Origin: Parapedobacter koreensis | GTDB lineage: Bacteria; Bacteroidota; Bacteroidia; Sphingobacteriales; Sphingobacteriaceae | Length of the DNA stretch: 64,000 nt | NCBI RefSeq assembly: GCF_900109365.1 | Contig: NZ_FNZR01000001.1 | Location: 186,001 to 250,000 of the forward strand | Direction: 5' to 3' | Shown: positions 14,030 to 39,892 of the stretch, one piece after another | Layout of the letters: each line of letters opens with the position of its first letter | How positions within the stretch are numbered: position 1 is the stretch's first letter | Program-made: the position numbers and the translations under genes | The notes under the pieces: generated by a model | Told to the model about the DNA's origin: nothing | The model's database searches: none | The model's input: the letters and a program-made list of their open reading frames with translations, nothing else

Positions 14030-14068
14030 GGTTGCACTAAAATTGTGACAGGTTTTCAATCGCCAATG

Positions 14069-14159: not shown

Positions 14160-14239
14160 AGAGCCGCCTATTTTCGTTGAGTCGCACGTCTTCGGTTTAT
14201 TTTCGCAAGAGATATATGACCATAAAACCAAATAGAAAC

Positions 14240-18449: not shown

Positions 18450-18671
18450 GTAAAAAAGAAAATTTTAGGTGGTCTGGCTGTAGCAACCATCGCTGCCGTG
18501 ACCACGTTTAACATCAATTTTAATATGAATGAAAGTAATGAACTTTCTACTGTAAGCCTTGCGAATGTAGAGGCATTGGCACAGAGTGAAAGTGGGGGTG
18601 GTGGTAAAACATGTTATAATACAGTGACTTCTAAAGAGGGAAGCCAGGTAATGTATTGCCCCAACCTGTAG
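18450..18671 (+). pseudogene. NVEALA-family peptide 3, start codon lost
   Basis: The frame reads KKKILGGLAVATIAAVTTF, then LSTVSLANVEALAQSES, a Gly run and a tail with two cysteines (TCYNT..., MYCPNL). It aligns codon by codon with NVEALA peptide 2. Where peptide 2 has ATG, this copy has GTA (18450-18452). Upstream in frame there are stops and no ATG, GTG or TTG, so normal initiation is impossible unless a rare codon such as ATT at 18462 is used. The rest of the frame is intact, which points to recent loss. A hairpin and a propeller gene follow as in the other units. Confidence 0.75.
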
Positions 18672-18789: not shown

Positions 18790-19899
18790 ATGAAATTAAA
18801 GCTATTTTCGAAAATTACGGCGCTACTATTTGTTTGCTCGTTAACGAATTGCAAACAATTTTTTCACCCATCCGATCTATCGGGGAATATGTCTTTCCAA
18901 GATGTAAAATACGTGGATGAATTTTCTCGTACATATACGCTTAAGAATAAGAAAAAAACCAATATTGATTTAATTGGGATGAAAAATTTCGCAATTCATG
19001 ATTCTTTACTGATTATTTCTACAAGCAATGCGGATGGCTTGTGGTCATTTATTTGTTTAAAAACAGGCAAATATCTAGGCAGCTTCTTGACAAGGGGTCA
19101 GGGGCCTTTTCAGTTTATTGAATCACCGAGCGTTAGCAATAAAGTAATATTTACGAACGAAAATGACAGTACTGTCTCATATATCTATGATTTTCAAAGG
19201 GGAGAACTACTGCGATTAAATATAGCGAGATCCTTAGAATTGAACAAGCTGAATATCAATGTCGTCAACGATTCTCTCCCACCTTTCTTATTCAATTTTA
19301 TTATGATAGATAGCACGACGTTCTTTTGTAAAGAGACTAGTCCTCACCTAACGCAACAAATTAGGTATATAAAGAAACTTAATAGTAAGATCGAACCTAC
19401 ATTTCTTACTCCTTTAAATAGGGCCCAAATTAGGGATGGCGAAGATATCAACATTCTATCAACAATTGCCAAGCGAAATGATAAGATAAACCGCATTGTC
19501 GAAATGCCGATTGGCCTTAGGCATATAAATATTTATTCACTCGATGGAACTTTTTCAAGAACCATCAATATCGGAGAACAATCAGATAAGCTAAGCGATA
19601 TACAAGATAAGTTTCGATGGAACCGGATATATACATTTGCTGACCTAAGAGTATTTGATAACTTCTTTGGAGTTGTGTATATAAATGAAGATGAGAAAAC
19701 CTATCAAACTGGGCGTAAGAGAATTCCAACTATATTACTTTTCGACTGGGACGGCAACCCGCTGGCAGAACTTAAACTGAGCCATCATATCACCTCTTTT
19801 GATATTGATTTCAATCAGGGGGAACTTTATACATTTGACGTTCACGCTGACGAATTATACAAGTACGACATCAAACACATCTTAGATGAGATACAATAG
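18790..19899 (+). CDS. BF3164-type propeller lipoprotein (AT-rich)
   Basis: A 369-residue exported protein. The signal segment ends in LTNC (Cys21), so it is probably a lipoprotein. Repeated beta blades follow, with the LTRGQGPFQFIESPSV turn and a final blade DWDGNPLAELKLSHHITSFDID, both typical of BF3164/TolB-like propellers. It sits in the NVEALA 3 unit behind a hairpin. Codons are AT-rich like its neighbours. It may still be transcribed from the unit promoter even though its peptide gene has lost its start codon. The 166 nt after it (19900-20065) show no feature I can name. Confidence 0.78.
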   Translation: MKLKLFSKITALLFVCSLTNCKQFFHPSDLSGNMSFQDVKYVDEFSRTYTLKNKKKTNIDLIGMKNFAIHDSLLIISTSNADGLWSFICLKTGKYLGSFLTRGQGPFQFIESPSVSNKVIFTNENDSTVSYIYDFQRGELLRLNIARSLELNKLNINVVNDSLPPFLFNFIMIDSTTFFCKETSPHLTQQIRYIKKLNSKIEPTFLTPLNRAQIRDGEDINILSTIAKRNDKINRIVEMPIGLRHINIYSLDGTFSRTINIGEQSDKLSDIQDKFRWNRIYTFADLRVFDNFFGVVYINEDEKTYQTGRKRIPTILLFDWDGNPLAELKLSHHITSFDIDFNQGELYTFDVHADELYKYDIKHILDEIQ

Positions 19900-20065: not shown

Positions 20066-21205
20066 ATGAGAACAATTACTTTTTTCTGTGCCTTATTTTT
20101 TCTGCTGCTGTCGTGCACATCGAATCAAGCGATTCTGGAAAGCGAAAAACAATTATTGACCGCACCTGACAAACCTTCTGAAACAGGTTACTTCAAAAAT
20201 CATTTCGAACTAGCCGAGATCATCCAGATTCAGACAAGCGATGATTTTCTTATATCAGATATCAAAAAGCTAATCAGGCATAAAGACAACGTTATTTTAT
20301 TTTCAGGCACGAATAATACTGTTTTTATTATCAATGCAAAAAACGGAAATATTGAAACACGCATAAACAAGATAGGCACAGGCCCCGGGGAATCTAAAAC
20401 AATAATAGATATCTCCTTTGATGAATCGTCAGAGCAGTTATTGATTTACAACGATTACTACAAACTCCTCTTTTTTGACATCCAGGGAAAATTCTTGTCT
20501 GAAATAAAGGTGGACGGGACGTATGAGGGGATCAGTTGGTATGATGGCGAAGTATTCTTCCATAATAAATTGCAAGGTTATTCCTGCTATCCATATCTTG
20601 TTAAAATTTTAAGACTGAAGACCAATACATGGCGAGAGATAGGCCACGATAGAAGGGTAGATTTTCCAATAAGAACCCTTGGAAGGCAAATGGTAAAGAG
20701 TAAACAATTATGGTTTACCGCGCCACTTGACTTTAATTTATTCCATTTCAATAAAAATCAAGTCCAAATCCCTTATGAATTATCCCTTTCTAACACTGTT
20801 ACAGACGAGCGTTTGATAAAAGAATCAACATCCAATCCGCAAAGATTTTTCGAAGAGGTGACGGGTAATAACCTTATTTATGCTGTAAATTCCATCCGAG
20901 AAACAACCGATCATTTAGTCTTTCGCTCTAATCAAGGGGGTATTTTCATTATTAATAAAAATGAAAACAAGATTTATTGGGATAGTTACGTTGAAGAAAC
21001 CTTATTAGGCATGGACCTGACTTACTACTATCCACATGATGGAGATGATGACAAAATCATGTTCATACTTCCGGCTGAAGTATATACACAACATATGCAA
21101 TCTAATCCAAAGAGTAGCGCTACTCCTTTAAAAATCAAGGAAGACGACAATCCTATTCTCATTTTTTATAAGCAAAAAAACATCCAGTCCGATAATGGAA
21201 GCTAA
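20066..21205 (+). CDS. Six-bladed beta-propeller lipoprotein (DUF5128-like)
   Basis: A 379-residue lipoprotein: signal peptide with lipobox LLSC, then an ELAEIIQIQTSDDFLISDIKK start and the INKIGTGPGESKTIIDISFD turn that mark the six-bladed propeller group formerly DUF5128. Blades repeat to about residue 320, and the C-terminus is DDNPILIFYK, like the DANPILQVVYLK end of the 23021-24118 protein. I chose ATG 20066 because the signal peptide begins there. It closes the unit before direct-repeat site 4. Its role is unknown; such propellers often bind ligands or partner proteins at the envelope. Confidence 0.8.
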   Translation: MRTITFFCALFFLLLSCTSNQAILESEKQLLTAPDKPSETGYFKNHFELAEIIQIQTSDDFLISDIKKLIRHKDNVILFSGTNNTVFIINAKNGNIETRINKIGTGPGESKTIIDISFDESSEQLLIYNDYYKLLFFDIQGKFLSEIKVDGTYEGISWYDGEVFFHNKLQGYSCYPYLVKILRLKTNTWREIGHDRRVDFPIRTLGRQMVKSKQLWFTAPLDFNLFHFNKNQVQIPYELSLSNTVTDERLIKESTSNPQRFFEEVTGNNLIYAVNSIRETTDHLVFRSNQGGIFIINKNENKIYWDSYVEETLLGMDLTYYYPHDGDDDKIMFILPAEVYTQHMQSNPKSSATPLKIKEDDNPILIFYKQKNIQSDNGS

Positions 21206-21573: not shown

Positions 21574-22746
21574 ATGAAAAGACTTATTTCTATAACAACA
21601 CTATCCGTAATATCGTTGATCACTTATTCCTGTAAGGAAAAAATCGTTGCAGTAACGAACCCTACGGAAAAATCAACTAAGGATTCAACATTACTTGTCG
21701 CAAAAGAATTCCCCAAATATATTTCTATAGGAGAGCAATTAACACCAGCCCCATTAGTGTCTCAATTATTTGAAACAGGTGAACAGTTGTATTATATTTT
21801 TCTTGACGGAAATGACTTGAATATTTTTGATTATAATACAGGTCTTCAAAAAAAAAGAATATCCATTAATTCATCCGAGGAAAAAGGTTGCGGAGTATTA
21901 AATAATTATTCCGGATTTTATTACCATTCACCCGACTCTATATTTATTTACAATTATAAATCTAAAAATCTCTTTTTAATAGATTCTTTGTCTGCCATCA
22001 AAAAGACGTGGAATACCGTTGACCACACATTAGCAAAATATCCAGTAGATATTGAAGCTTTGACATCATCCCCCATTTCTTGTATTAAAGGCAAAATTTT
22101 ACTGTCCGGAACAAGTTTAGGACAACCTGAGGATGCTACAGAAGATAATAAACCAGTCAGCTGTCTTATCAATCTCCAAGATGGAGCAGTTGATTATCGT
22201 GTGGGTTATCCAAACCAGTACAGAGAGGGGAATTTTGGAGGACTATACTTCAATACTGTATACCATACTGTTGATTCATACAACGGCAAAGCTATTTATA
22301 GTTTTCCTGCGGATCATCATGTTTACAGCTATGATGCAGGTTTTTCAAAAAAAGAAAAGATATATGCCGGCAGTCGTTACGTTAATGAAATACAGTCATC
22401 CTCAGACAATTTTTTTGAATTATTTCAGGACAAAAATAAGAGAATTGAGTATTTCATAAGCCAACCTTCCTATGCTAACATACTCTACGATAAATATCGA
22501 AGAGTATATTACCGAATAGCCACGATACCTCTCCTCAACTGGAAACCGACAGACAGTAAATTTGAAAAGCCTTTCTCTATAATAACAATAAACGAGTCTG
22601 GGAAGATTCTTTCGGAAACACCCGTGTTTCAAAATCCTCAACAATACAATTTAGGCAATATGCACATAGCTCCTGAAGGATTACTGGTTCAAAAATATAC
22701 AGAAGACGAAAATATCATCCATTTTGAAGTGTTTACAATTATATAA
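21574..22746 (+). CDS. DUF4221 family lipoprotein
   Basis: A 390-residue lipoprotein (lipobox TYSC, Cys20) matching DUF4221. It has an EFPKYISIGEQLTPAP region, many short beta blades, ILYDKYRRVYYRIATIPLLN, and a C-terminus with NMHIAPEGLLVQKYTEDEN. The family is predicted to be propeller-like, is Bacteroidota-specific and is of unknown function. A fragment of a second copy lies at 18003-18195. It is followed after 3 nt by a broken thioredoxin-like lipoprotein gene and then another propeller gene, repeating the lipoprotein plus thioredoxin arrangement of the first unit. Confidence 0.83.
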   Translation: MKRLISITTLSVISLITYSCKEKIVAVTNPTEKSTKDSTLLVAKEFPKYISIGEQLTPAPLVSQLFETGEQLYYIFLDGNDLNIFDYNTGLQKKRISINSSEEKGCGVLNNYSGFYYHSPDSIFIYNYKSKNLFLIDSLSAIKKTWNTVDHTLAKYPVDIEALTSSPISCIKGKILLSGTSLGQPEDATEDNKPVSCLINLQDGAVDYRVGYPNQYREGNFGGLYFNTVYHTVDSYNGKAIYSFPADHHVYSYDAGFSKKEKIYAGSRYVNEIQSSSDNFFELFQDKNKRIEYFISQPSYANILYDKYRRVYYRIATIPLLNWKPTDSKFEKPFSIITINESGKILSETPVFQNPQQYNLGNMHIAPEGLLVQKYTEDENIIHFEVFTII

Positions 22747-22749
22747 TCG

Positions 22750-23024
22750 ATGAAATATATTTATTACAGCCTATTTATACTTTTGCTATACAGCTGTCAA
22801 GAAAAGCCTACGAATACAATAACGGAAGAGTTTGAAAAAAGGGGGGTAGAAATACCAGAAGAGGTAGAGATTTGTATAATAATGCCGTCCGTGGGGTGTG
22901 GGGCATATATCCTGCCGTACTCTATTTCCAAAATGGAGATTTTGAAGACATTCAATATCAAAGCCCTGACTCACCTGAAACCTTTGCAAAACTTGAGCAC
23001 TTAATTAATCAGGAGAACAGATGA
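22750..23024 (+). pseudogene. Frameshifted/internally deleted thioredoxin-like lipoprotein
   Basis: The ATG frame gives a signal peptide, lipobox YSC and VEICIIMPSVGCGAY, then runs out of frame to a stop at 23002-23004. One base over, the DNA reads IYPAVLYFQNGDFEDIQY and continues to KLEHLINQENR and a TGA at 23022-23024, which overlaps the next gene's ATG by 4 nt. The second frame looks like the C-terminal end of a TlpA-like protein. The middle of the fold is missing, so the gene suffered a deletion plus a shift near 22905. The retained ATGA overlap shows it was once coupled to the propeller gene. Confidence 0.65.
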
Positions 23025-24118
23025 AAATTTGGTGGAAATCAATTATTTTCATTTTTGTTTTGATAAGCTGTCAACACAAAAATGACAACCCCTATTTGAT
23101 AGACTTAGAGAATCAGCTACAAAGTAATCAGAGATGCACGCTTAGTGACCTTGCGGACTCTATTTCTTATATCTTTTTAGAAACGAGCGATAATTCGTTG
23201 TTACCTAATATAAGTGCAATTGTTTACCTTGATTCGAACGACATATTTGTTCGAGGTGGAAATTATGTGTATAGATTTTCCGGTATTGGAAAATTCTTAA
23301 ATCGAATAGGGGCAGTAGGGATGGGCCCTAAAGAGTACCCTAGCTTACAGGAAGTGTCAATAGACCCTTACAACAAACAGCTTTTATTGCTTTCCCAAAG
23401 TGGGCATGTCTATATATATGGCTACGACGGAAATTTTGTTAAGAAACTTCACCTTGAAGGGGAGATTAGCGCCATAAATAGCCTCAATGACAATTCGTTT
23501 GTCTGCGAAGTTAGAGATTACAATGATAGTTATCGTTCATCATTAATTCAATTTGATAAAGACGGTGCTGTAATTAAAAAAATTGAAATAGAAAAAGACA
23601 ATTTAAATTTTAGCCGATCATTACAAACCGTTTCCTTAATGTTTAACACGAACAACAGCATTAAATTCAAATCCTTATATAATGACACACTCTTTAGCTA
23701 TAATAAGCTACAATTAACCCCTCACAAAATTTTAAATCTTGGGAGACTTTCTCCTTCAAGAGATCTGATTGAAAATGTAGATAAGAAAAACGAGCTCTTG
23801 TCAAAATACGCGCAAATAGTTGATATTGTCGAATCTGAAAACTATCTGTTTCTACTCATAATCATGAATGAAAAACTGAATGGTGTTATCGTTGACAAAG
23901 ACAACAACAAGGTAGTTTATAATCAAGAAATAGAAAATCCGAGAGCAGGGGGCGGCATTGACAACGATTTAAATAATTCTGGAAAATTTTGGCCAATGTT
24001 GTCTTCTAATAATCAAAAAAATAGTGTGGTACAATTAGTTCATCCGGTTTATACAAAAATGGAAAACACACTGACAGATGATGCCAATCCTATTTTACAA
24101 GTTGTATATTTAAAATGA
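23021..24118 (+). CDS. Six-bladed beta-propeller lipoprotein (DUF5128-like)
   Basis: A 365-residue lipoprotein (lipobox LISC, Cys17). The start CTLSDLADSISYIFLETSD, the NRIGAVGMGPKEYPSLQEVSID turn and the end DDANPILQVVYLK are diagnostic of the six-bladed propeller family (DUF5128). It overlaps the broken upstream gene by 4 nt. Codon use is strongly AT-biased. It closes the NVEALA array; direct-repeat site 5 and the signal peptidase/export operon follow. Its function is unknown; it could bind a peptide, glycan or partner protein. Confidence 0.83.
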   Translation: MKIWWKSIIFIFVLISCQHKNDNPYLIDLENQLQSNQRCTLSDLADSISYIFLETSDNSLLPNISAIVYLDSNDIFVRGGNYVYRFSGIGKFLNRIGAVGMGPKEYPSLQEVSIDPYNKQLLLLSQSGHVYIYGYDGNFVKKLHLEGEISAINSLNDNSFVCEVRDYNDSYRSSLIQFDKDGAVIKKIEIEKDNLNFSRSLQTVSLMFNTNNSIKFKSLYNDTLFSYNKLQLTPHKILNLGRLSPSRDLIENVDKKNELLSKYAQIVDIVESENYLFLLIIMNEKLNGVIVDKDNNKVVYNQEIENPRAGGGIDNDLNNSGKFWPMLSSNNQKNSVVQLVHPVYTKMENTLTDDANPILQVVYLK

Positions 24119-24350: not shown

Positions 24351-25202
24351 ATGGGTGTATGGCTACGTAAAATATGGAAAACCTCGCGAGGGATTGCGCT
24401 AACGGCCATCTTCACCGTACTCGTTGTCGGAAGCCTACGCATATTTCTATTTGCTTCGTTTAGTATCCCAACACCTTCTATGCAGCCTACCATCCTACCG
24501 GGCGACCATATATTGATTAATAAATTGGTACCAGGCCCGCGTATGGACTGGCTATGCAACGCGGCAGACGTCAGCGATAACCATCGTTATCGTATCAAAG
24601 GACACAGGCCCGTCACACGTGGGGATGTGTTGGTATTCAACGCACCTTATCACCTTTCTGACAAAATAGCGAAAAATTGGGAAATCTATTACGTCAAACG
24701 CTGTATGGGGGTTCCCGGTGATACGCTACAGATAAAAGAAAATGCGTATTGGATAAAAAATAAGGCAGGCGCGTTCAAGGTTTCAGTACCGGCGAACAAA
24801 TTGGTAGATGCTTGGATGGATAGCCAAAAGCCGGATAGGTTTAAGGAATTGGATTGGACACTGGCTTCCTTGGGCCCGGCCTACATCCCTCGAGAAGGAG
24901 ACAAAATCCGATTGGATTCCGTCAATATATACCTTTATGAAAACCTAATCGAATATGAGACCGGCGGGGAAGTTTCTTTTTCCGCTAACAGGTGCTATCT
25001 CGATGGCAAGCCGTATCCCTATCATTCATTCAGGCAAAACTATTACTTTATGGCGGGGGATTATGCCGTAGACTCCGAAGATTCACGCTACTGGGGCCTG
25101 TTGCCCGAAGATCATATTGTCGGCAAGGCCGCTTACATATGGCGATCTACGGATCCCGACACCAAAAAATACCGGTTCGACCGATTTTTTAAACCCCTAT
25201 AA
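24351..25202 (+). CDS. Signal peptidase I (S26), locus-specific
   Basis: A 283-residue type I signal peptidase. It has one N-terminal membrane helix (about 16-37), box B with catalytic Ser43 (SIPTPSMQPTILPGD), box D with catalytic Lys116 (YYVKRCMGVPGD) and box E GDYAVDSEDSRYWG (236-249). Between boxes D and E lies a long insertion (about 125-230), larger than in a minimal enzyme. It is the first gene of a co-directional run ending at the second RND permease, with a 5-nt gap to the next gene. Its place in this locus rather than with housekeeping genes suggests it trims exported products such as NVEALA precursors or pump lipoproteins; this is inference. Confidence 0.92.
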   Translation: MGVWLRKIWKTSRGIALTAIFTVLVVGSLRIFLFASFSIPTPSMQPTILPGDHILINKLVPGPRMDWLCNAADVSDNHRYRIKGHRPVTRGDVLVFNAPYHLSDKIAKNWEIYYVKRCMGVPGDTLQIKENAYWIKNKAGAFKVSVPANKLVDAWMDSQKPDRFKELDWTLASLGPAYIPREGDKIRLDSVNIYLYENLIEYETGGEVSFSANRCYLDGKPYPYHSFRQNYYFMAGDYAVDSEDSRYWGLLPEDHIVGKAAYIWRSTDPDTKKYRFDRFFKPL

Positions 25203-25207: not shown

Positions 25208-27118
25208 ATGAAAAACACATTCAAGACATTCATCAACTGCCTGTGCTTATTGCCTTTCATCGGTCTATTGGGGGGTGTATTGGTCTTGGATGAACACGTT
25301 ACAGATGGCACAGGTGCAGGAAAGACGGTTGCCTTTTACGCTATCATGGGATTGATTCCCCTGGCAACGTCACTTTCTTATTGGAACAACCGACAGAGCC
25401 TGAAATACTGCACAACGGACTGGTTGGTTCCGCTATTCGCAGCGTTGGGCCTTGCAATCACGTATCTCAATCATCCGGTATGGAATACCAAGATGGTGTC
25501 CTTGGTGCTACTGGTGGTGCTATACTTCTCATTGCGTATTTTTCTGGTGCAGCATAAGGCCAACCTGCATGTGCTGCTTTTGGCCTTTATGGGTACAGGG
25601 CTCGTCGAAGCCCTTTGGGGGCTGTTGCAGCTTTACGGGCAGGTTCCGTCCCAGCACGTGCTTTTTCGGGTGACCGGTTCGTTTTTTAATCCAGGTCCTT
25701 ATGCCGGTTATTTGGCCATGATACTGCCCATGGCGGTGTACTATGCCATACGGGATAGCAAGGTAATCCATGCCCCATTCCGAAGAAGAATGCGGTATTA
25801 TTATCTTCGATGGGAGCTTGCGCTATCGACCTTGATTGGCATCGTCCTGATTTTACCGGCTACAATGAGCCGGGCCGCCTGGATTGCCGGAGGGATAGGC
25901 GGCATCGTGGTGATATTGAGCCACTTGTCCAAGCACAAAAAACACCTTATCGGCGCTTACCTTAGCTTGTACACCAAGAAGGGTATCGTTGTATTGGCCA
26001 CCGCTGCGTTAGTTATCGGGATAGGACTGGTGGGATTATATCACTTAAAGAAAGATTCGGCCGATGGCCGGGCATTAATCTGGAAAGTGTCCATGGATAT
26101 CATCGAAGAGCAATGGCTTGGTGTGGGGCTTGGTTATTTTTCGGGCCGGTATGGCGAGGCGCAGGGCAAATATTTCGCTTCGGGCCGTGCTACGGAGCCG
26201 GAAAAATTCATTGCCGGGGAGCCTGAATATGCATTTAATGAGTTTATCCAGATCGCAGTAGAGCTGGGCGTACTCCCATTTCTCCTCCTATTGATTGTCT
26301 TTAGCTACGCGTGTGTTGTCGGTGTCCGGCGAGGAAAATTGGCAGTGGTTGCAAGCCTCGGTTCTCTGCTTGTTTTTTCTTCGATGTCCTACCCGTTCAG
26401 CCTACTGCCTTTTCTTGTGGCGCTGACCTTGCTCATCACCGGTTGCGTCTCGGTGAGCTACCAATTTACTTATATCAATGACTTTAGGAATATGTACCTT
26501 TTTGATTACCGCCTGCGGCGGCGTTGGAACAGTGCGGCGATCATCATTTCATTGTTGGCAAGCTGGGTCGTAGTTGCCTATTGCTTATCCAATCGATATC
26601 CGGTCTATCTCGCTCATAAACAATGGAGCCAAGCACGAATATACTATCATGCCAACGCCTATGAAGAGGCGGTGAAGCGTTACCGCGGCTTGTTGCCGCA
26701 CCTTGGCGATCAAGTACATTACCTCTTTGAGTATAGCCAAGCGCTCTCAAAAACAGCAAGGTATGAAGAAAGCATCGAGGTGATTGACCAAGCCACCTGG
26801 ATTAGCGGAGATCCCATGCTTTTTGTCATTCAGGGAAAAAATTTCATGGGCATGCACGATTACAGGTATGCCGATATTTATTTCAAACGGGCCGCCCAAA
26901 GGGTGCCCCATAGGCTCTATCCCTACTACATGATGGCCAAAGCTTACCAAGAAGCGGGTGATCTGGACAAAGCCAAGCGAATGGCCACGCATGTACTCGC
27001 GAAACAGGTAAAGGTGGATTCTCCAGCCACCCGGGAAATGAAAGCAGAAATGACAGCCATGATCGATAGCATGGAAATTGAAAATACTACAATAGAACCA
27101 GTAAATGATGATGAATGA
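25208..27118 (+). CDS. Wzy/O-antigen-ligase-like membrane protein with C-terminal TPRs
   Basis: A 636-residue protein. About 11 membrane helices fill residues 1-460, with the Wzy_C-type signature GSFFNPGPYAGYLAMILP and a large loop with GVGLGYFSGRYGEAQG and AFNEFIQIAVELG. Residues about 480-620 form TPR-like repeats (YEEAVKRYRGLLPHLGD, YADIYFKRAAQRVPHR, GDLDKAKRMATHVL). Wzy_C proteins polymerise or ligate lipid-linked glycans, and some (PglL type) glycosylate proteins. Here the neighbours are a signal peptidase and a pump, with no glycan genes in view, so transfer of a glycan to exported peptides or a non-glycan role are both possible. The stop overlaps the adaptor start. Confidence 0.85.
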   Translation: MKNTFKTFINCLCLLPFIGLLGGVLVLDEHVTDGTGAGKTVAFYAIMGLIPLATSLSYWNNRQSLKYCTTDWLVPLFAALGLAITYLNHPVWNTKMVSLVLLVVLYFSLRIFLVQHKANLHVLLLAFMGTGLVEALWGLLQLYGQVPSQHVLFRVTGSFFNPGPYAGYLAMILPMAVYYAIRDSKVIHAPFRRRMRYYYLRWELALSTLIGIVLILPATMSRAAWIAGGIGGIVVILSHLSKHKKHLIGAYLSLYTKKGIVVLATAALVIGIGLVGLYHLKKDSADGRALIWKVSMDIIEEQWLGVGLGYFSGRYGEAQGKYFASGRATEPEKFIAGEPEYAFNEFIQIAVELGVLPFLLLLIVFSYACVVGVRRGKLAVVASLGSLLVFSSMSYPFSLLPFLVALTLLITGCVSVSYQFTYINDFRNMYLFDYRLRRRWNSAAIIISLLASWVVVAYCLSNRYPVYLAHKQWSQARIYYHANAYEEAVKRYRGLLPHLGDQVHYLFEYSQALSKTARYEESIEVIDQATWISGDPMLFVIQGKNFMGMHDYRYADIYFKRAAQRVPHRLYPYYMMAKAYQEAGDLDKAKRMATHVLAKQVKVDSPATREMKAEMTAMIDSMEIENTTIEPVNDDE

Positions 27119-28208
27119 ATTGACAAATACGACACTGCTTTTATGGATAGGCGTGGCACTGTACGCAATCACACTGATAGCCTGTACCACCGCCGAAAAA
27201 GGGCAAACGGAGGAGCACGTGCAAACAGTACTCCCCAGCGACAGTAGCTACGTAAAGGCTATAGTGCTGCAACGTGCGGATTTTAGCCATGAGTTGATTT
27301 CAAATGGAACAATAGCTGCCGCAGAAAAAGCTGATCTACACTTTGAAACCCCTGAGGTCGTGGAGGAAATTTATGTCAGGAATGGGCAACGGGTCTTAAA
27401 AGGGCAAAAAATAGCGGCACTGGTCCAGTTTAAATTACAGAATGCCATGCGTCAGGCACACGATAACCTTGAAAAATCCAAATTGGAATTGCAGGATGTA
27501 TTGATTAGCCAAGGATACGCCGTAAAGGACTCACTGAACGTACCAGCGGACATCATGAAAATCGCCAAAATCAAAAGTAACTATGAAAACAGTGTAATCC
27601 AATATGAGTTGGCCCGATATAATCTGAGTCAGTCGGTTCTTTATGCACCTTTTGATGGCGTCGTTGCCAATCTTTTTTCAAAAAAATACAACATGCCTCC
27701 CAGTTCAGACCCGTTCTGTACCGTTATCGGCAGTCATATACTGGAGGCTGATTTTAAGGTACTGGAGAGCGAACTCAGCCTTGTCAACCAAGGCGATCAG
27801 GTCCAGCTATCGCCATTTGCCCTCAGCAATTATAACATAGCGGGAAAGGTAGACGAAATCAACCCGGTAGTCGATGAAAACGGGATGATAAGGATAAAGG
27901 CGCGTATTCATGGGGCAACGGATAGCTTATACGACGGCATGAATATAAAAGTAAGGATACAGCGCTCCATGGGAAAACAATTGGTAATACCTAAATCGGC
28001 ATTAGTGCTGAGAAACAACAGAAAGGTGATTTTTACGGTCAAGAATGGAAAAGCCTTTTGGAATTATGTCCAGACAGGTATTGAAAACTCAACCGGCTAT
28101 GTCATCACGGAGGGTTTGCAATCGGGCGATAGCGTAATTTATGACGGCAACCTGAACCTTGCCCATGAAACGCCAATACGGGTAGCACAAACTACCGACA
28201 GGCTTTAA
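27105..28208 (+). CDS. RND periplasmic adaptor lipoprotein
   Basis: A 367-residue membrane fusion protein. Its N-terminus is a hydrophobic segment ending in LIAC (lipobox, about residue 27). Then come the lipoyl half EIYVRNGQRVLKGQKIAAL, a hairpin (FKLQNAMRQAHDNLEKSKLELQ), the second half YAPFDGVVANLFSKKYN, and a barrel domain ending in TEGLQSGDSVIYDGNLNLAHETP. It overlaps the upstream gene by 14 nt and precedes RND permease 1 by 28 nt. It is the only adaptor for two permeases and one TolC protein encoded downstream, so it probably serves both. Confidence 0.88.
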   Translation: MMMNELTNTTLLLWIGVALYAITLIACTTAEKGQTEEHVQTVLPSDSSYVKAIVLQRADFSHELISNGTIAAAEKADLHFETPEVVEEIYVRNGQRVLKGQKIAALVQFKLQNAMRQAHDNLEKSKLELQDVLISQGYAVKDSLNVPADIMKIAKIKSNYENSVIQYELARYNLSQSVLYAPFDGVVANLFSKKYNMPPSSDPFCTVIGSHILEADFKVLESELSLVNQGDQVQLSPFALSNYNIAGKVDEINPVVDENGMIRIKARIHGATDSLYDGMNIKVRIQRSMGKQLVIPKSALVLRNNRKVIFTVKNGKAFWNYVQTGIENSTGYVITEGLQSGDSVIYDGNLNLAHETPIRVAQTTDRL

Positions 28209-28236
28209 TTAAACACGAATTGCGGGATACAACTAC

Positions 28237-31200
28237 ATGATCAGATTTCTCATTCATAGGCCGGTGGCGGTATCGATGGCCTTTTTGGCGTTCTTTATAT
28301 TGGGCATCATTACATACATGAATATTCCTGTGTCTCTACTGCCCGATATTCCCATACCGGAAATAACTGTACAAGTGGCCGGAGGGAATCTCTCCGCCCG
28401 GGAACTGGAAAATACCGTGGTATCTCCTATCCGCCAGCAACTCCTGCAGGTAGCTAAATTACGTGATATGCACAGCGAGACACGTGATGGCAGTGCAGTA
28501 GTTCGCCTAAGCTTTGAATATGGCGTGAATACGGATCTGGCTTTTATCGAAGTCAATGAAAAGATAGACGCCGCCATGAACAATCTCCCCAGGGCAATCG
28601 AGCGTCCCCGTGCAGTGAAAGCGAGCGCAACGGATATTCCAGTTTTTTTTCTCCATCTGACTTTAAAGGACGATGAACCCTTTAAAAAAGGTCAGGAAAG
28701 TGACTTCCTCAACGTAAGCGAACTCGCCCAATCCATCATCAAGCGGCGGATCGAACAGCTCCCCCAGGTCGCCATGGTCGATATGACAGGAGTAGTAGAC
28801 AAGCAGATACAGGTTATCCCAAACAATAATACATTGGAGATAACCGGGATCACCCTGTCAGACATCAGTGCTGTCCTACAAAACAACAACATCGAGCCCG
28901 GCACAATGATCGTAAAAGACGGCCACTATCAGTATAACATCAGCTTCTCTTCCGTCATACGTACATTGGAAGATGTGCAGGATATTTATTTCAAGAAGAA
29001 TGGTCGGATTTTCCAACTCCGGGATCTTGCCGATATCAGTTTAGTGAGCAGGCCGGAAGAAGGAATTTCGCTCTACAACGGCAAGCGGGCCATTACCTTG
29101 GGTATCATCAAACAGGCAGACGAGAACATGTCCAGTTTAGCCGATGCAATGGCCAATACGCTCCACAATCTGCAAGGCCAATATCCTGAGATCGAATTCT
29201 CCCAGTCGCAAAATCAAACTGAGTTGTTGGAATACACCATTTCAAACTTACAACAAAACCTCATCCTGGCTTTTATCTTCGTTTGCCTGGTATCGGCGCT
29301 TTTTATGCGGGATGTACGATCACCGTTGATTATCGGCGTCAGTATGTTTGTTTCATTGATCGTAAGCCTACTTTTCTTTTTCGTGTGCAACGTCTCGCTT
29401 AATATCGTTTCGCTGACGGGGCTGATACTTGCGCTGGGCATGATGATTGACAATTCCATTATCGTCACCGATAACATCGGGCAACACCGAAGAAAGGGGA
29501 TGGATATTGACGAATCGTGCATCAGAGGCACCAATGAAGTCATTGTGCCAATGCTGAGTTCTTCGTTTACCACGATTTCTGTTTTTGTTCCCTTGATTTT
29601 TATGAGTGGTATAGCCGGAGCCGTCTTCTTCGACCAAGCGTTTTCGGTGACTGTTGGGTTGCTGGTGTCCTATTTGACGGGCATCATGCTATTACCTGTG
29701 CTGTATAAACTTGTCTATTCGATTAAATTTCCCCAAGCACGCACTAAGCGGCTATCTTCGGAGTCTCTCCCGGAAAGGGTCTATCATCACGTTGCTGATT
29801 GGGTATTTGGCAATAAGATGCTCACCATAGCAGGGGTGCTATTGATTTTTCCACTTTGTGTGTTCCTGTTCTTTGGCATCCGCAAGGAAAAAATGCCGGA
29901 AATAAGCCAGCAGGAACTGATCGTAAACGTGGAGTGGAATGAAAATATTCATCTCTGGGAGAATCAGCAACGGTCTACGGACCTCCTCCGGCATGTCCAA
30001 GCGCACGTCGAAGAAAATGCTGCGCTCATTGGCCGGCAGCAATTTGTGCTCAATAGAAAAGGCGAACAGACATTTTCGGAATCGGAGTTTTACCTGAAAA
30101 CCGAACAAACGGAGGACATCCCTAAACTGAAAAAGATCATCGATGCTTACATGCGGCAGCAATATCCGCTGTCTATCGTTTCGTATGCCCCTGCGGGGAC
30201 ACTATTTGAGCGGATTTTTGTGACAGCAGACCCTGATCTGAGACTGGAATACTATACCGGAAAAGGAAAGGATATCTTATCCATGGACTCCGTGCAAGCC
30301 TTCCAAGCGCAATTATATAAAATAACGGGCTATCATCCGAAAAGTATATCATTTCGAAAACAGTTGGATCTTCGGATCGACAAGGAAAAGTTGCTGTTGT
30401 ACGATGTATCGTATGATCACGTGTATCAAGCGCTGAAAGCGGGTTTTAAACAAGAAGAGATCACAACACTGCGGTCTTATCAACAGTACTTGCCTGTCAT
30501 CATCGGACAGAGAAACAACGAAGTCAGTGAAGTCATCAACCATACATCGATTCAGGAATCCCCACCAGGCGGTGATGGCCGCGCCAGGAAATTGCCGCTT
30601 AATACATTTATTTCTACCTATCCGGCCCAGGGCATGAAAACAATCGTCGGGGGCCGTAATGGCGAATACATTCCCTTTGATTTTCACGAGGTGCAGGATC
30701 CTGATCGTACACTGGCGCTGCTTAAAGACAATATAACACCCAACAACGAGCGGGACATCCAGCTATCGGGGTCGTTTTTTTCAAACAGAAAGATGCTGGA
30801 CGAGCTGTTGGTCATCTTAGTAGTATCCATCCTATTGATGTATTTTATACTTGCCGCTCAATTTGAAAGCTTTATACAGCCACTCATCGTGTTGCTGGAA
30901 ATTCCGATAGCCATCGCTGCCGCATTGGGCCTGCTAATTCTTTTTGGACATAGCTTGAATCTCATGTCTGCCATCGGCATCATTGTCACCTGTGGAATCA
31001 TTATCAACGATAGCATCCTCAAACTTGACATCATGAACCAGCTTCGTCGGCAAGGGATCGAATTGATAGCGGCCATACACGAAGCGGGAAGAAGACGCCT
31101 CAATGCTATTCTTATGACAAGTCTTACATCCATTGTGTGCATGCTGCCGCTGTTTTTCAGCCATGATATGGGATCGGAATTAGAAAAACCACTGGCTATC

Positions 31201-31299
31201 GCCACCATCGGTGGCATGTTGATCGGCACGCCCATTAGTCTTTTTGTAGTGCCTTTGGTGTACTGGTTTATATATAGGAAAAAGGAAAACAAGGTATAA
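28237..31299 (+). CDS. RND permease 1 of the two-permease exporter
   Basis: A 1020-residue RND permease of AcrB/MdtB-like layout: two repeats of one helix, a large periplasmic domain and five helices. TM4 has Asp405 in LGMMIDNSIIVTDN. The TM10 segment GIIINDSILKLDIMN carries Asn where AcrB has its relay Lys, as in many Bacteroidota pumps. The substrate cannot be inferred from sequence. It is followed after 3 nt by the TolC gene and then a second permease. Two different permeases with one adaptor recall the MdtBC heterotrimer. Confidence 0.92.
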   Translation: MIRFLIHRPVAVSMAFLAFFILGIITYMNIPVSLLPDIPIPEITVQVAGGNLSARELENTVVSPIRQQLLQVAKLRDMHSETRDGSAVVRLSFEYGVNTDLAFIEVNEKIDAAMNNLPRAIERPRAVKASATDIPVFFLHLTLKDDEPFKKGQESDFLNVSELAQSIIKRRIEQLPQVAMVDMTGVVDKQIQVIPNNNTLEITGITLSDISAVLQNNNIEPGTMIVKDGHYQYNISFSSVIRTLEDVQDIYFKKNGRIFQLRDLADISLVSRPEEGISLYNGKRAITLGIIKQADENMSSLADAMANTLHNLQGQYPEIEFSQSQNQTELLEYTISNLQQNLILAFIFVCLVSALFMRDVRSPLIIGVSMFVSLIVSLLFFFVCNVSLNIVSLTGLILALGMMIDNSIIVTDNIGQHRRKGMDIDESCIRGTNEVIVPMLSSSFTTISVFVPLIFMSGIAGAVFFDQAFSVTVGLLVSYLTGIMLLPVLYKLVYSIKFPQARTKRLSSESLPERVYHHVADWVFGNKMLTIAGVLLIFPLCVFLFFGIRKEKMPEISQQELIVNVEWNENIHLWENQQRSTDLLRHVQAHVEENAALIGRQQFVLNRKGEQTFSESEFYLKTEQTEDIPKLKKIIDAYMRQQYPLSIVSYAPAGTLFERIFVTADPDLRLEYYTGKGKDILSMDSVQAFQAQLYKITGYHPKSISFRKQLDLRIDKEKLLLYDVSYDHVYQALKAGFKQEEITTLRSYQQYLPVIIGQRNNEVSEVINHTSIQESPPGGDGRARKLPLNTFISTYPAQGMKTIVGGRNGEYIPFDFHEVQDPDRTLALLKDNITPNNERDIQLSGSFFSNRKMLDELLVILVVSILLMYFILAAQFESFIQPLIVLLEIPIAIAAALGLLILFGHSLNLMSAIGIIVTCGIIINDSILKLDIMNQLRRQGIELIAAIHEAGRRRLNAILMTSLTSIVCMLPLFFSHDMGSELEKPLAIATIGGMLIGTPISLFVVPLVYWFIYRKKENKV

Positions 31300-31302
31300 C
31301 AT

Positions 31303-32787
31303 ATGACGTACAAATGGCTAATCGTTTTGATCGCATCATTCTTGGCTGTGTTGGCTAAAGCGCAAACCACGCAAAGACTGACCCTTCAGGAAAGCATTCA
31401 AATTGCAAGTGACAGCTCCTTGCAGTCATTCGGCGCACAAAATCTCTACCTGGCCAGCTTTTGGGAATATCGGGCATTCAGGGCGGCCCGATTCCCATCG
31501 CTGGTCTTAAACATGACGCCGCTTCAATACAATCGCGAATTTATTCAACGCTATGATCCCGACAACAATATTGATGTCTACAGGACGCAGCAATCGCTAT
31601 ACTCGTCGGCTAATATTGCCATTAATCAGAACCTGGATATTACAGGTGGAACATTTTTCATCGATTCTGAACTGGGCTTTCTCCGTAATTTCGGGCAGGC
31701 GGCTTTCACCCAATATTCCACTGTACCCATCCGAGTGGGATATATACAGTCACTAATGGGGTTCAATACTTTCCGTTGGCAAAAAAAGATAGCGCCGCTC
31801 AAATACGATAAAGCGCAAAAGCAATACATCCGTTCAAGGGAGGAAGTCTCCGAGTCGGTCATCGAATACTTTTTCACACTTGCCTTGGCGCAAGCCGAAC
31901 ACGAAATGGCCATCGATAATGTAAAATCTGCGGATACGCTTTTCCATATCGGACAGGAACGATTCAAAATAGCATCAATATCGCAAGCGGATATGATGAC
32001 GTTGAAGCTGGATGCCATCAATGCCAAGAATACGTTAAAGAATATCGAAATCGAACTAAAGAAAGCAACTTTTGGCCTTACCTCTTTCCTTAACCTAAAG
32101 GAAGAGAGCCCGATCGAAATCGTCCTTCCCCAGCGGCCAAGGAACCTGTCCATACCGATTGAAAAAGCGCTGGATCAGGCCTATGAAAACAATCCCGATT
32201 ACTTGAGCAATCAACAAGAAATCATGGAAGCCGAGATGGAAGTAGAACGGACCAGCAAAGGAGCGGCATTCAATGCCGACCTGTCGCTCAGTGCAGGATT
32301 TAACCAAGTAGCGAGTACAATAGGTGCTGCTTACCGAAATCCGCTGCAGCAAAACATTGTCCGTATCGGTTTAAGTGTACCCATCCTGGATTGGGGAGTA
32401 AGAAAGGGGCAGGTCAATATGGCGAAGAATAACCTGAACGTGGCACGCATATCCGTGCAACAGAAAGAGCAGAGCTTGGAGCAGGAGGTCATCGTTACCG
32501 TCAGCGACTTCAATATCCAACAAGATATGATAAACAGTGCAGAGGAAGCATTGGATTTGGCGGTGGCTGCATACAACGCCACCAGACAGCGCTTTATCAT
32601 CGGCAAATCCGACATCAATAGCTTGACGTTGTCATTGAACAGGCAGAAGGATGCCCAGAAAAACTATATATCGGTATTGAAAAATTACTGGCTAAGTTAT
32701 TACCGGATTAGGAAATTGACACTGTACGACTTTGAACAGCAAGCTCCGCTTTCTTATCTTTTTGATAAAATGAATGGTGTCTATTGA
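31303..32787 (+). CDS. TolC-family outer membrane channel protein
   Basis: A 494-residue outer membrane efflux protein. It has a signal peptide ending AKAQ, then TQRLTLQESIQIASDSS, long helices repeated twice with the paired SVPILDWGVRKGQVNMAKNN and AVAAYNATRQRFIIGKSDINSL motifs, and a final YWLSYYRIRKLTLYDF. It is the outer channel for the tripartite pump. Its stop overlaps the start of the second permease gene by 4 nt, so the three pump genes are translationally linked. Placement between the two permeases argues that it serves both. Confidence 0.9.
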   Translation: MTYKWLIVLIASFLAVLAKAQTTQRLTLQESIQIASDSSLQSFGAQNLYLASFWEYRAFRAARFPSLVLNMTPLQYNREFIQRYDPDNNIDVYRTQQSLYSSANIAINQNLDITGGTFFIDSELGFLRNFGQAAFTQYSTVPIRVGYIQSLMGFNTFRWQKKIAPLKYDKAQKQYIRSREEVSESVIEYFFTLALAQAEHEMAIDNVKSADTLFHIGQERFKIASISQADMMTLKLDAINAKNTLKNIEIELKKATFGLTSFLNLKEESPIEIVLPQRPRNLSIPIEKALDQAYENNPDYLSNQQEIMEAEMEVERTSKGAAFNADLSLSAGFNQVASTIGAAYRNPLQQNIVRIGLSVPILDWGVRKGQVNMAKNNLNVARISVQQKEQSLEQEVIVTVSDFNIQQDMINSAEEALDLAVAAYNATRQRFIIGKSDINSLTLSLNRQKDAQKNYISVLKNYWLSYYRIRKLTLYDFEQQAPLSYLFDKMNGVY

Positions 32788-35700
32788 TGGAAATAAAAAA
32801 GAAAATATCATCATTTTCCATCATACTGACCTTTGTCTGCCTTTCGTTTGTCGGGTTGGCACTGCTTCCCATGCTGTCCGTCAAACTATCTCCTGCTCAA
32901 ACGTTGCCTCAGATAAGCGTTGAGTTTTCGATGTATGGCAGCGGGCCACGGACCGTCGAAATCGAAGCTACTTCAAAACTGGAAGCTATGTTCAATCGGA
33001 TGAGTGGCATCAGACATATCTCATCAACGTCTGGAAATGGATGGGGCCGAATCAGCATTGAGTTTGATAAGCATACAGACATGGACATCGCCCGATTTGA
33101 AGTGTCTACCATCGTGAGGCAGCTATGGCCACGCTTGCCGGAGAACGTCTCCTATCCCCGTATATCACAAAGCCGGGCTGATCAAAATGCAGAAAAAGCA
33201 TTCTTGAGTTTTACGATAAATGCCTCGGCGCCGCCACAAGACATACAAGATCTGGTAGAGAGCACCCTCAGACCCCAGCTCTCCATGATAGCGGGAGTAA
33301 ATAGCGTAGCCGTTAGCGGGTCAACCCCAATGGTATGGCAACTGCTATACGATGCCGACCAGCTAAACACCCACGGCATCCTTATAAGGGATATTCAGGA
33401 GGCTATCACGAATTCGCTGCAAAAAGATTTCCTGGATATGGCCTTTGCACAATCAGGAGAAGACGATAAATCGTGGATCAGCGTGATGCTAAGCCCATCG
33501 GAAACGCATCAGGAGGATGTATTAAAAAGCGTTGGCATCAAACGCGTTGATGGTGTAATTGTCCCACTCGGGAAAATTGTTAAAATCAACAGGATCGAAT
33601 CGCAGCCCCAATCGTATTATCGGATAAATGGACTTAATTCCATCTACCTTACTATCACAGCGGATGAAAGTAGTAATCAACTGGAATTAGGAAAAAAAAT
33701 ACACAAAAAAATAACAGAAATGCACACGGCCCTGCCATCCGGCTATGAAGTGCATACGGCTTATGACGCTACGGAATATATCAAGTCTGAATTGCAAAAA
33801 ATCTATTTCAGGGCTGGCTTGACGCTTATTATACTCCTGATCTTCATCTTCGTAAGCTACCGCAACCTGAAATACATGGTACTGATTGTCGTAACGCTGG
33901 GCTGCAACCTGGCGATTGCGATGATAGGCTATTACCTGCTGAAACTGGAAATACAACTCTACGCTTTGGCCGGCATTACGATTTCACTAACCTTGATTAT
34001 TGACAATACCATCGTGATGGCGGATCACCTCATCCGCAAGAACAACAGCCTTTCATTCATGGCGGTCCTGGCGGCCACAATGACAACCATTGGTTCGTTG
34101 TCAATCATTTTCTTTTTGGACGAAAAACTACGTCTCAGCCTGCAAGATTTTGCAGCCGTGATCATCATAAACCTACTGATATCATTATTGATCGCATTGT
34201 TCTTGGTCCCTGCACTGGTCGATAAATTGAAGATGAACCAAAAATCAAAACGCATTCGGCATAGCCGAAACGGAGTGTTCTTCAGGAAGAAAAGGAGCGT
34301 CTATGTTTATTTTGCCCGCCCTTATAGCAATGTCATCCGCTTCATGCAGCGTTGGAGAGCAGTCGTTATTGCGGTCCTTGTCCTTACGTTTGGCCTGCCT
34401 GTCTTTCTGATACCCGATAAAATGGAAGGCGAGTCAAAATGGACAGCATTATATAATAAAAGTCTCGGAAGCGCTTATTACAAAGAGAACTTAAGCACAT
34501 ACGTGAATACTATTTTAGGCGGTACATTGAGGCTTTTCGTCCAAAAGGTCTATAATGGATCCTACTTTTCCAGGCAAGAAGAAACTACCTTATTGGTCAG
34601 CGCCTCGTTGCCAAGCAACTCCACTATCAAGGAAATGAATGGCCTAATACAGCAAATGGAGAGTTTTCTGAGCCAGTTTTCAGAAATCAAACAATTCCAG
34701 ACCCAGATCCACAATGCCCGGCAAGCGACGATTAATATCCTTTTCACGGAAGCATACGCCAATAGCGGCTTTCCGCACATGCTGAAGGCCAGACTCATCA
34801 CTAAATCCCTTGAGTTGGGCGGCGGCAGTTGGGGCGTGTATGGCTTAGGAGACGGATTTAGCAATGATGTAAGGGAGAGTGCCGGATCATTCCGCGTTGA
34901 GATGTATGGATTTAATTACGATGATCTGATGGCTTTTGCAGAGGGATTCAAAAGTAAGCTGTTGGAACACCGCCGGATTAAGGACGTAATCATCGAATCC
35001 GAATTTAGCTGGTTCAAGGATGAGTACGAGGAGTTTCGCGTTGATTTCAATAAGGAAAAACTCGCAGAGGAAGATATCCAACCTTATCAATTGTATGACA
35101 AACTGAGTTTGGTTTTCGGGCGGGATATCAATGTTGGGAGTCTCATGATGCCAAAAGGGCCTGAACGGCTTTATTTAAGTTCGACACAATCAGACAACTA
35201 CGATAGATGGAGTTTGCTCCATATGCCCGTTGAAAACAATGGAAAAATATACAAGTTGGCCGAACTCGCGCAGATAAATAAAGGGCAACTGCCCCGCGAG
35301 GTAGGAAAGATAGATCAACAATACCGTCTTTGTTTGCAATACGAGTATATTGGGGCAAATGAACAGGGAAAAAAGTTGCTGGATAGCTATATCGAAGAAT
35401 ATCGTGAAGAATTGCCTACCGGGTATACCATAATCAATGCAAATGCATATGATTTTGATTGGTGGGGAGATGGGAAATCACAGCAATATTGGTTATTGTT
35501 GCTCATCTTCGTGATCATCTATTTTGTATCAAGTATACTGTTCAATTCGCTTACTCAACCGCTGTACATCATCTTCGTTATCCCGGTTTCTTTTATCGGT
35601 ATCTTTTTGTCGTTTTATTTATTTGGGCTCAATTTTGATCAGGGAGGATTTGCCTCATTTATCCTATTGTCCGGCCTTACGATTAATGCCAATATTTATA

Positions 35701-35981
35701 TCATCAACGAGTACAACAATATCAGAAAGATGCAACACTATCTCCCTAACATGAAGATATACCTAAAAGCATGGAATGCCAAAGCCCGCCCCATCTTGCT
35801 CACGGTATTGTCCACCATATTGGGATTTATTCCCTTTTTGATAGGCGATTCAAAAGAGGCTTTTTGGTTCCCTTTAGCTGTGGGCACAATTGGGGGGTTG
35901 ACAGTTTCTACCCTCGGAACGTTTCTTTTTTTACCGCTATTCATGGGCATTGGGAAATCTTTTCTTAGCCATAAATTATGA
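32784..35981 (+). CDS. RND permease 2 of the two-permease exporter
   Basis: A 1065-residue RND permease, clearly different from permease 1. It begins with a full TM1 (FSIILTFVCLSFVGLALLPML). TM4 carries Asp407 in LTLIIDNTIVMADHL. The TM10 segment is GLTINANIYIINEYN, which again lacks the relay Lys. The TolC and permease 2 genes overlap by 4 nt (ATGA). The periplasmic domains are full length, so it is not a remnant. Pairing with permease 1 as a heteromeric pump is inference from the operon. The operon appears to end here. Confidence 0.88.
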   Translation: MMEIKKKISSFSIILTFVCLSFVGLALLPMLSVKLSPAQTLPQISVEFSMYGSGPRTVEIEATSKLEAMFNRMSGIRHISSTSGNGWGRISIEFDKHTDMDIARFEVSTIVRQLWPRLPENVSYPRISQSRADQNAEKAFLSFTINASAPPQDIQDLVESTLRPQLSMIAGVNSVAVSGSTPMVWQLLYDADQLNTHGILIRDIQEAITNSLQKDFLDMAFAQSGEDDKSWISVMLSPSETHQEDVLKSVGIKRVDGVIVPLGKIVKINRIESQPQSYYRINGLNSIYLTITADESSNQLELGKKIHKKITEMHTALPSGYEVHTAYDATEYIKSELQKIYFRAGLTLIILLIFIFVSYRNLKYMVLIVVTLGCNLAIAMIGYYLLKLEIQLYALAGITISLTLIIDNTIVMADHLIRKNNSLSFMAVLAATMTTIGSLSIIFFLDEKLRLSLQDFAAVIIINLLISLLIALFLVPALVDKLKMNQKSKRIRHSRNGVFFRKKRSVYVYFARPYSNVIRFMQRWRAVVIAVLVLTFGLPVFLIPDKMEGESKWTALYNKSLGSAYYKENLSTYVNTILGGTLRLFVQKVYNGSYFSRQEETTLLVSASLPSNSTIKEMNGLIQQMESFLSQFSEIKQFQTQIHNARQATINILFTEAYANSGFPHMLKARLITKSLELGGGSWGVYGLGDGFSNDVRESAGSFRVEMYGFNYDDLMAFAEGFKSKLLEHRRIKDVIIESEFSWFKDEYEEFRVDFNKEKLAEEDIQPYQLYDKLSLVFGRDINVGSLMMPKGPERLYLSSTQSDNYDRWSLLHMPVENNGKIYKLAELAQINKGQLPREVGKIDQQYRLCLQYEYIGANEQGKKLLDSYIEEYREELPTGYTIINANAYDFDWWGDGKSQQYWLLLLIFVIIYFVSSILFNSLTQPLYIIFVIPVSFIGIFLSFYLFGLNFDQGGFASFILLSGLTINANIYIINEYNNIRKMQHYLPNMKIYLKAWNAKARPILLTVLSTILGFIPFLIGDSKEAFWFPLAVGTIGGLTVSTLGTFLFLPLFMGIGKSFLSHKL

Positions 35982-36061
35982 TATACTGATACAAAAAATG
36001 CCATATTGGCACGAACGACCATTGCTGCACAGCTTTTGTTATGAGTTGCAAAAGCATTTTT

Positions 36062-39879: not shown

Positions 39880-39892
39880 GCTTCGCAATCCG

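Follow-up and report, generated by a model that had tools for sequence, protein, structure and literature searches.

Can two different permeases serve a single efflux pump, and what would such a pump carry? The question is raised by a stretch of 64,000 nucleotides from Parapedobacter koreensis (hereafter the window; the source genome comprises 5.5 Mb in 27 contigs). Here, at 27105-35981, a preliminary description had placed two divergent, full-length permeases of the resistance-nodulation-division (RND) type that share one periplasmic adaptor and one TolC-family channel, and the analysis presented here bears this out with exactly these coordinates. On balanced grounds, and with even credence, we suggest that the two permeases (P1 and P2), the adaptor and TolC form one tripartite pump with a mixed-permease trimer, which would belong to a Bacteroidota lineage apart from MdtBC and would likely move Sec-exported peptides from the periplasm to the outside.

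Organization of the pump genes

All genes of the cluster lie on the plus strand. The adaptor (membrane fusion protein, MFP; 27105..28208) matches PF16576 (HlyD_D23), PF13437 (HlyD_3) and TIGR01730 (RND_mfp) above cut-off, and its N-terminus appears lipobox-like by eye. It is followed by P1 (28237..31299; 1020 amino acids), the outer membrane channel (31303..32787; PF02321) and P2 (32784..35981; 1065 amino acids), which starts either at TTG 32784 or at ATG 32787. Two genes precede the adaptor: an S26 signal peptidase I (24351..25202; PF10502 and TIGR02227 above cut-off), one of the two S26 signal peptidase genes found in this genome, and a membrane protein with Wzy_C (O-antigen ligase; PF04932) and tetratricopeptide repeat (TPR) domains (25208..27118). 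From the S26 gene through to P2 the gaps are 5, -14, 28, 3 and -4 nt, the last being an overlap of 4 nt from the TTG start and 1 nt from the ATG. The junctions of 4 nt or near zero that had been described are found between P1 and TolC and between TolC and P2, but not between the adaptor and P1, where 28 nt intervene.

Both permeases match PF00873 (cut-off 28) over their full length, P1 with 559 bits and P2 with 339 bits in two stretches, and they are 18% identical to each other over 456 amino acids. The motif of transmembrane helix 4 (TM4) is MIDN for P1 and IIDN for P2, while both have Asn at the position of AcrB Lys940 in TM10; the IDN motif and missing relay lysine noted earlier are common to nearly the whole group of related cassettes. 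The closest relative among those found is Parapedobacter defluvii, with a P2 identity of 76-77%.

Conservation of the cassette and pairing of P1 with P2

The gene order had been thought unusual. On the contrary, adaptor-P1-TolC-P2 is conserved in 64 of 80 related loci, these being the best 80 of 394 relatives in a named genome collection. The others have P1-TolC-P2 (7), TolC-P2 (6), P2 alone (2) or P1-P2 (1), and several of these incomplete cassettes are short contigs. Such recurrence means that the arrangement is neither chance nor a local oddity, and an odd local rearrangement is rejected. Hosts, as given by record title, include Sphingobacterium, Parabacteroides, Phocaeicola, Tannerella, Capnocytophaga, Paludibacter, Muribaculaceae and others; Phocaeicola and Parabacteroides are genera with human gut members. 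Bacteroidota-type cassettes are also held by bins titled Lachnospiraceae, Clostridium and Staphylococcus (L114, L117, L120), which are probably mislabelled, and a P2 relative of 54% identity is found on a Phocaeicola massiliensis record listed as a plasmid (PLSDB OY726023.1). Within the same family as the source, 7 of 151 genomes (own included) contain P2 relatives of 34-77% identity, one with a split frame. Among 395 genomes drawn across the phylum, 68 match the P2 profile (threshold E <= 1e-120).

P1 and P2 almost always occur together. In a sample of 151 genomes of one related family, both are present in 33, P1 only in 1, P2 only in 2 and neither in 115 (Fisher 9e-30, which, like the other Fisher values given below, overstates independence because the genomes are related). 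The three genomes with a single permease represent partial matches. The lists and positions behind the statistics of this sample were transcribed by hand. Distance matrices of P1 and P2 from 41 loci correlate with r 0.978, whereas none of 2000 permutations exceeded 0.402; part of this agreement stems from the common history of the hosts.

Five loci without an intact P1 (L050, L073, L083, L090, L102) were followed into their genomes. At L050 P1 lies on the same contig and is only clipped by the locus boundary. The other four are true cases of P2 without P1, and for three of them (L073, L090, L102) P1 was found on another contig; the genome of L083 (Phocaeicola faecium) gave matches to distant RNDs only. 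The 1.5 kb around each displaced P1 gene contain an adaptor at L300, a TolC at L301 and neither at L302, and tblastn with the adaptor of the window found none at L073, L083, L090 or L102, where P2 is alone or with TolC. These searches speak against separate adaptors for the two permeases without settling the matter.

The same two permease types are paired in other orders at 34 loci of deep relatives (deep loci), where the labels P1 and P2 were assigned by the better BLAST score. A second permease is seen at 30 of these, and none was found in the flanking DNA examined at L159, L191, L192 and L195. The order is adaptor-P2-P1 at L042, L043 and L044, followed by TolC where the DNA examined reaches that far, adaptor-P1-P2 at L160, L161, L163, L164, L166 and L167, and P1-adaptor-P2 at L185-L189 and others; at loci such as L160 and L164 the two permeases stand in direct tandem. 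As deep relatives keep the pair in varied orders, it is the pairing, not the exact order, that is the old feature.

Phylogeny, relay residues and predicted structure

Three quick trees, with support from the Shimodaira-Hasegawa-like approximate likelihood ratio test (SH-aLRT) only, were built from 64 rows (mixture model), 107 of 238 rows and 133 rows. In the 64-row tree P1 (22 rows, support 99) and P2 (22 rows, 100) fall into separate clades that both draw on the same class as well as on other parts of the phylum, and MdtB pairs with MdtC inside an AcrB-side clade (98). The two clades are separate again with 107 rows (P1, 42 rows, 98; P2, 47 rows, 100). When 23 further RNDs were added to give 133 rows, P2 remained one clade (100) and the P1-labelled rows had no clade of their own; the smallest clade with all of them, including two extra permeases of L194, also held P2, with a support of 10.

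The clades of P1 and P2 are distinct and mirror each other, with MdtB and MdtC placed elsewhere, so that the pair appears to represent a second lineage of two-permease RND pumps, one that resembles MdtBC by analogy and not by kinship. MdtBC had been named as the best-known precedent; it remains the nearest functional one, whereas kinship is rejected on these quick trees. By sequence profile the best Protein Data Bank (PDB) match of P2 is MdtB (246 bits, the best stretch being the first half), a match that the tree does not turn into kinship. A heavy-metal pump of the CusA type (HME) is also rejected, as CusA and two other permeases of the own genome (L005, L007) are split from all other rows, P1 and P2 included (100).

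Residues were counted at 85 cassette loci, giving 73 P1-labelled and 85 P2 rows; L039/L045 and L040/L047 each seem to be duplicate records of one set of genes and are counted double in all three figures. AcrB Asp407 is kept in every row of both sets, and position 408 is N or S throughout. At position 940, N takes the place of Lys in 70 of 73 P1-labelled and 85 of 85 P2 rows. Despite this common signature P1 and P2 diverge within TM10 and TM11. Position 941 holds Asp in 72 of 73 P1 rows, against Ala in 83 and Thr in 2 of the P2 rows; position 945 is Lys in 72 of 73 P1-labelled rows and in no P2 row; and Arg971, kept by all 73 P1 rows, is exchanged for Lys in all 85 P2 rows. The single P1-labelled row deviating at 941 and 945, L071 at 15077 (23% identity), is counted among the 73 although it probably represents a different RND. 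For comparison, 7 of 12 other RNDs of the own genome keep Lys940 and 6 keep Asp408. Both relays are thus altered, and unlike each other, as expected of subunits with split roles, which is no proof on its own.

Single-chain models of medium confidence have a predicted local distance difference test (pLDDT) score of 73.1 for P1 (md0d8a396b38c) and 72.0 for P2 (m1505a813d30b). The top PDB structure match of both is AcrD, near full length (P1, TM-score 0.80, 20% identity; P2, TM-score 0.72, 16% identity), followed by AcrB and other hydrophobe/amphiphile efflux (HAE) pumps. These monomeric predictions point to an RND fold and say nothing on partners.

NVEALA peptides and propellers beside the pump

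What might the pump carry? The neighbouring genes had been taken to point to peptide or envelope cargo, and peptide genes indeed lie beside it. Three peptide frames upstream match the NVEALA family (PF14055, cut-off 27): NVEALA 1 (14216..14455, +; 39.7 and 40.2 bits in two scans), NVEALA 2 (16291..16533, +; 37.7 and 38 bits in two scans), in which the motif is followed by a Cys-rich tail, and NVEALA 3 (18450..18671, +; 42.6 bits). The frame of the third has no ATG, GTG or TTG before its hydrophobic segment and the rest reads on, so that it may be either a decaying copy or a gene with an unusual start. Each is followed by a TolB_like propeller (PF15869): a six-bladed one after NVEALA 1 (14457..15506, +; 250.9 bits), whose lipobox is seen by eye and was missed by the lipobox script, a six-bladed lipoprotein after NVEALA 2 (16755..17789, +; 62.2 bits) and a lipoprotein after NVEALA 3 (18790..19899, +; 29.2 bits, at cut-off), the latter two with a lipobox. 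Closer to the pump are three more lipoproteins with a lipobox, namely two DUF5128 six-bladed propellers (20066..21205 and 23021..24118, both +; PF17170) and, between them, a DUF4221 protein (21574..22746, +; PF13970), which is grouped with the propellers and does not match the profile of downstream open reading frames (ORFs) used below. All 3 PF14055 matches of the own genome (15 of 26 first-look candidates were scored) and both of its PF17170 matches are in this cluster.

A search for the same gene order beside NVEALA genes, as had been proposed, was positive. In the 151-genome sample PF14055 is present (E <= 0.001) in 24 of 35 genomes with P2 and 3 of 116 without (Fisher 2e-16); with the Pfam cut-off of 27 bits, 17 of 19 genomes with PF14055 carry P2 (Fisher 5e-11). 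P2 and PF14055 share a contig in 13 of the 24 genomes, and in 12 of these 13 they are 4.5-17.7 kb apart. Across the phylum sample, PF14055 is above cut-off in 3 of 395 genomes (own, G382, G490), and these have the three highest P2 scores. It is also found in 32 of 40 cassette genomes hand-picked from the 80, and at L041 an NVEALA gene and propeller genes sit inside the pump gene run. Arrays of NVEALA genes were observed on G611:C5 (about 11), G593:C27 and G640:C1, often spaced by 1.5 kb or so, as if peptide-propeller pairs were repeated.

Peptides were collected from 75 Pfam-hit loci and the window and kept by motif pattern, giving 66 rows including repeats (64 non-redundant); because of this selection the conservation of the motif is imposed, while the distribution of cysteines is not. 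The median length is 43 residues to the end of the motif and 39 for the tail. Across the 64 peptides, Cys accounts for 20 of the 2733 residues that reach up to the motif and for 250 of the 2750 that follow; its number is even in 52 of the tails. A same-strand ORF of at least 200 amino acids begins within 500 nt 3' of the NVEALA gene at 59 of 64 loci, and 39 of these 59 ORFs have a lipobox-like start, compared with 184 of 808 control ORFs.

Association of propellers with the pump at deep loci

A profile of the ORFs that follow NVEALA genes detects propellers at 20 of the 34 deep loci and at 0 of 20 control stretches, placed by the analyst away from pumps in the same genomes (Fisher 5e-6). Since the first three propellers of the window were included in the profile, its matches to them are circular, and their identity rests on Pfam instead. 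Ten deep propellers were scanned, and nine have matches to families found in the window (PF17170, PF15869 or PF13970), the PF15869 match being below cut-off. No propeller was found at 11 other RND loci of the own genome. Immediately before the propeller, a small leader-bearing ORF whose tail is rich in Cys is present at 12 of 34 deep loci and 0 of 20 controls (Fisher 0.002). By our estimate from the rate of such ORFs, about one would be expected by chance before 35 propellers, and 18 were observed. The propeller link therefore outlasts NVEALA at deep loci.

Proposed function and alternative explanations

In the proposed mechanism, the inner-membrane trimer would contain both P1 and P2. An NVEALA peptide, with its leader and hydrophobic segment, would cross the inner membrane by Sec, and the leader may be cut near NVEAL-A, an AxA-like site that follows the signal peptidase cleavage rule, perhaps by the S26 enzyme of the operon where present. 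Disulfides would then form in the Cys-rich tail in the periplasm, the P1/P2 trimer would take up the peptide via the adaptor, and the peptide would exit through TolC, a route suggested by genetic linkage. Neighbouring propeller lipoproteins may bind the released peptide, acting as receptors or in immunity or sorting. That RND permeases can hold peptides is indicated by MtrD structures whose PDB titles, among the structure matches, name LL-37 and CASP peptide. More tentatively, and at somewhat less than even probability, Bacteroidota might own an ancient, dedicated peptide-secretion machine, in which a heteromeric RND pair exports diverse Sec-exported, Cys-rich peptides (NVEALA in many, other families elsewhere) that mature in the periplasm and are matched to cognate surface propeller lipoproteins as a peptide-receptor or bacteriocin-immunity repertoire.

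Several observations count against a heteromeric peptide pump. The genomes compared share kinship, and both S26 (20 of 80 loci) and Wzy_C (19 of 80) are only accessory. PF14055 finds no match in 8 of 40 cassette genomes and 11 of 35 P2 genomes of the related family; in the phylum sample it is above cut-off in only 3 of 68 P2 genomes and in none of the other 65, while G202 and G270 have sub-cut-off matches and lack P2. Some of the 12 near placements also rest on sub-cut-off NVEALA matches (G606, G619 and the C64 match of G602). NVEALA genes are inside the flanks examined at only 17 of 85 cassette loci, and thus often lie further out or elsewhere. None of the 34 deep loci has PF14055 in its flanks and 14 have no propeller by the downstream-ORF profile, so the identity of the cargo is not conserved. 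Leader-plus-Cys ORFs are noisy as a criterion alone: 48 were counted over 585 kb at deep loci and 7 over 360 kb of control stretches, while other RND loci of the own genome have 18 in 209 kb, a rate no lower than that of the deep loci. Only the position just before a propeller discriminates.

The 11 genomes without PF14055 and the 14 loci without a propeller are consistent with one heteromeric pump of general efflux or envelope function, handling drugs, bile salts, lipids or, with Wzy_C, glycan, whose peptide and propeller neighbours would be hitch-hikers or regulators. Most RND pumps characterised so far export small amphiphiles, and a Wzy_C/TPR gene precedes the adaptor in the window. We nevertheless think this unlikely, since deep loci without NVEALA again show the propeller link, in many cases together with a Cys-rich ORF, and it is absent from the 11 other RND loci of the own genome.

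Somewhat less probable still are two separate homotrimeric pumps that share the adaptor and TolC. The TM4 Asp is kept in both permeases, and MdtB alone makes a homotrimer according to the part of PMC12802153 available; the same partial source, however, describes this homotrimer as inactive and B2C as the active form. In addition, the near-perfect co-occurrence and mirrored trees of P1 and P2 count against separate pumps.

A role in defence, in which the pump ejects peptides released by neighbours and the propellers are immunity proteins, would fit the NVEALA arrays (about 11 genes on G611:C5), which resemble toxin-immunity cassettes. It seems quite improbable, as the organism itself encodes leader-bearing peptides in the gene cluster of the pump. 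It is also very improbable that pumping is left to P1 and that P2, having degenerated, plays a structural or regulatory part. In favour of this, all 85 P2 rows have Ala or Thr at 941 in place of the TM10 acid found in P1, and Lys instead of Arg971; yet P2 keeps its full length, the TM4 Asp in all 85 rows and a predicted RND fold.

If the proposed heteromeric pump does export peptides, this would be an unfamiliar job for an RND-type pump. Literature searches on RND peptide export gave nothing on point, a weak absence given that subscription papers were mostly outside the search. The Cys-rich peptides offer a testable cargo for the pump and, conversely, a functional lead for the NVEALA peptides and their propeller partners. 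The word NVEALA was not found in the literature searched, from which no function could be derived; as few subscription papers were included, this too is a weak absence. Searches on the propellers returned nothing on point save a gene-table entry in the accessible part of PMC10434189, an absence that is likewise weak. For Bacteroides thetaiotaomicron VPI-5482, the tables of that paper name an O-antigen ligase (BT0662), a hypothetical protein (BT0663), a six-bladed propeller (BT0664), lepB (BT0667) and an RND adaptor (BT0669), by annotation a putative counterpart of the cluster in the window.

Other genes in the window

Among the peptide and propeller genes, a small lipoprotein-like ORF (15542..16096, +) has no NCBIfam or Pfam match, is thioredoxin-like only by eye and has relatives at 5 of 80 loci; speculatively, it might be a disulfide partner. 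Another lipoprotein-like ORF of 84 amino acids (22750-23004), between the DUF4221 gene and the second DUF5128 gene, has no Pfam match and may be a remnant. An OmpR-type response regulator and a histidine kinase, both named by eye, adjoin NVEALA 1 on the opposite strand (11980-14059, -). They were rejected as a core part of the system, with relatives of the regulator at 2 and of the kinase at 4 of 80 cassette loci. Directly 3' of P2 is a Cpn10-like ORF (36041-36442), for which tblastn detected a relative at none of the 80 loci, followed on the opposite strand by two alpha-L-rhamnosidase genes (37630-42568, -). The window also contains a CusA-side RND permease of another system (5593-8682, -). 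Known phage-defence genes were rejected, as a PADLOC scan of 7 window proteins gave no match.

Comparison with known systems

AcrB, AcrD, MexB and MtrD are canonical HAE-1 pumps that function as single-permease homotrimers. P1 and P2 share PF00873 and the RND fold with them, but differ from AcrB, which keeps the Asp pair in TM4 and Lys940. A closer likeness in organization is seen in MdtABC-TolC of Escherichia coli, MuxABC and SmeIJK (HAE-1 Clade B), where two different RND permeases and one adaptor are encoded in one operon, as they are in the window and at 64 of 80 loci. The precedent for two permeases in one pump is the MdtB2C heterotrimer, as far as the available parts of PMC7015380 and PMC12802153 describe it. 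Tandem permeases of Clade B are about 50% identical (PMC10872679, seen in part), in contrast to the 18% of P1 and P2, each of which has its own Bacteroidota clade. Neither P1 nor P2 has the Asp407-Asp408 and Lys940 relay that MdtB and MdtC keep, and the 64-row tree indicates no common descent with them.

In its accessible part, the same 2024 survey of RND permeases lists 203 tandem permease repeats, all in Clade B, and places one duplication in Proteobacteria; this part makes no mention of P1/P2, which would be a second tandem-permease lineage. Our literature searches on two-permease pumps found only pumps of Proteobacteria and unrelated papers, a weak absence as few subscription papers were covered. 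Because P1 and P2 lie outside Clade B in the trees, are Bacteroidota-wide and are far more diverged, asymmetric RND trimers may have had more than one origin, and would be open to comparison.

With respect to cargo, a parallel is MacAB-TolC, which moves periplasmic peptides out via TolC after Sec export. It expels antibiotics and exports virulence factors (PMC5985334, in the part available). The motor of MacAB-TolC is an ATP-binding cassette (ABC) transporter, whereas that of the cassette described here is of the RND type.

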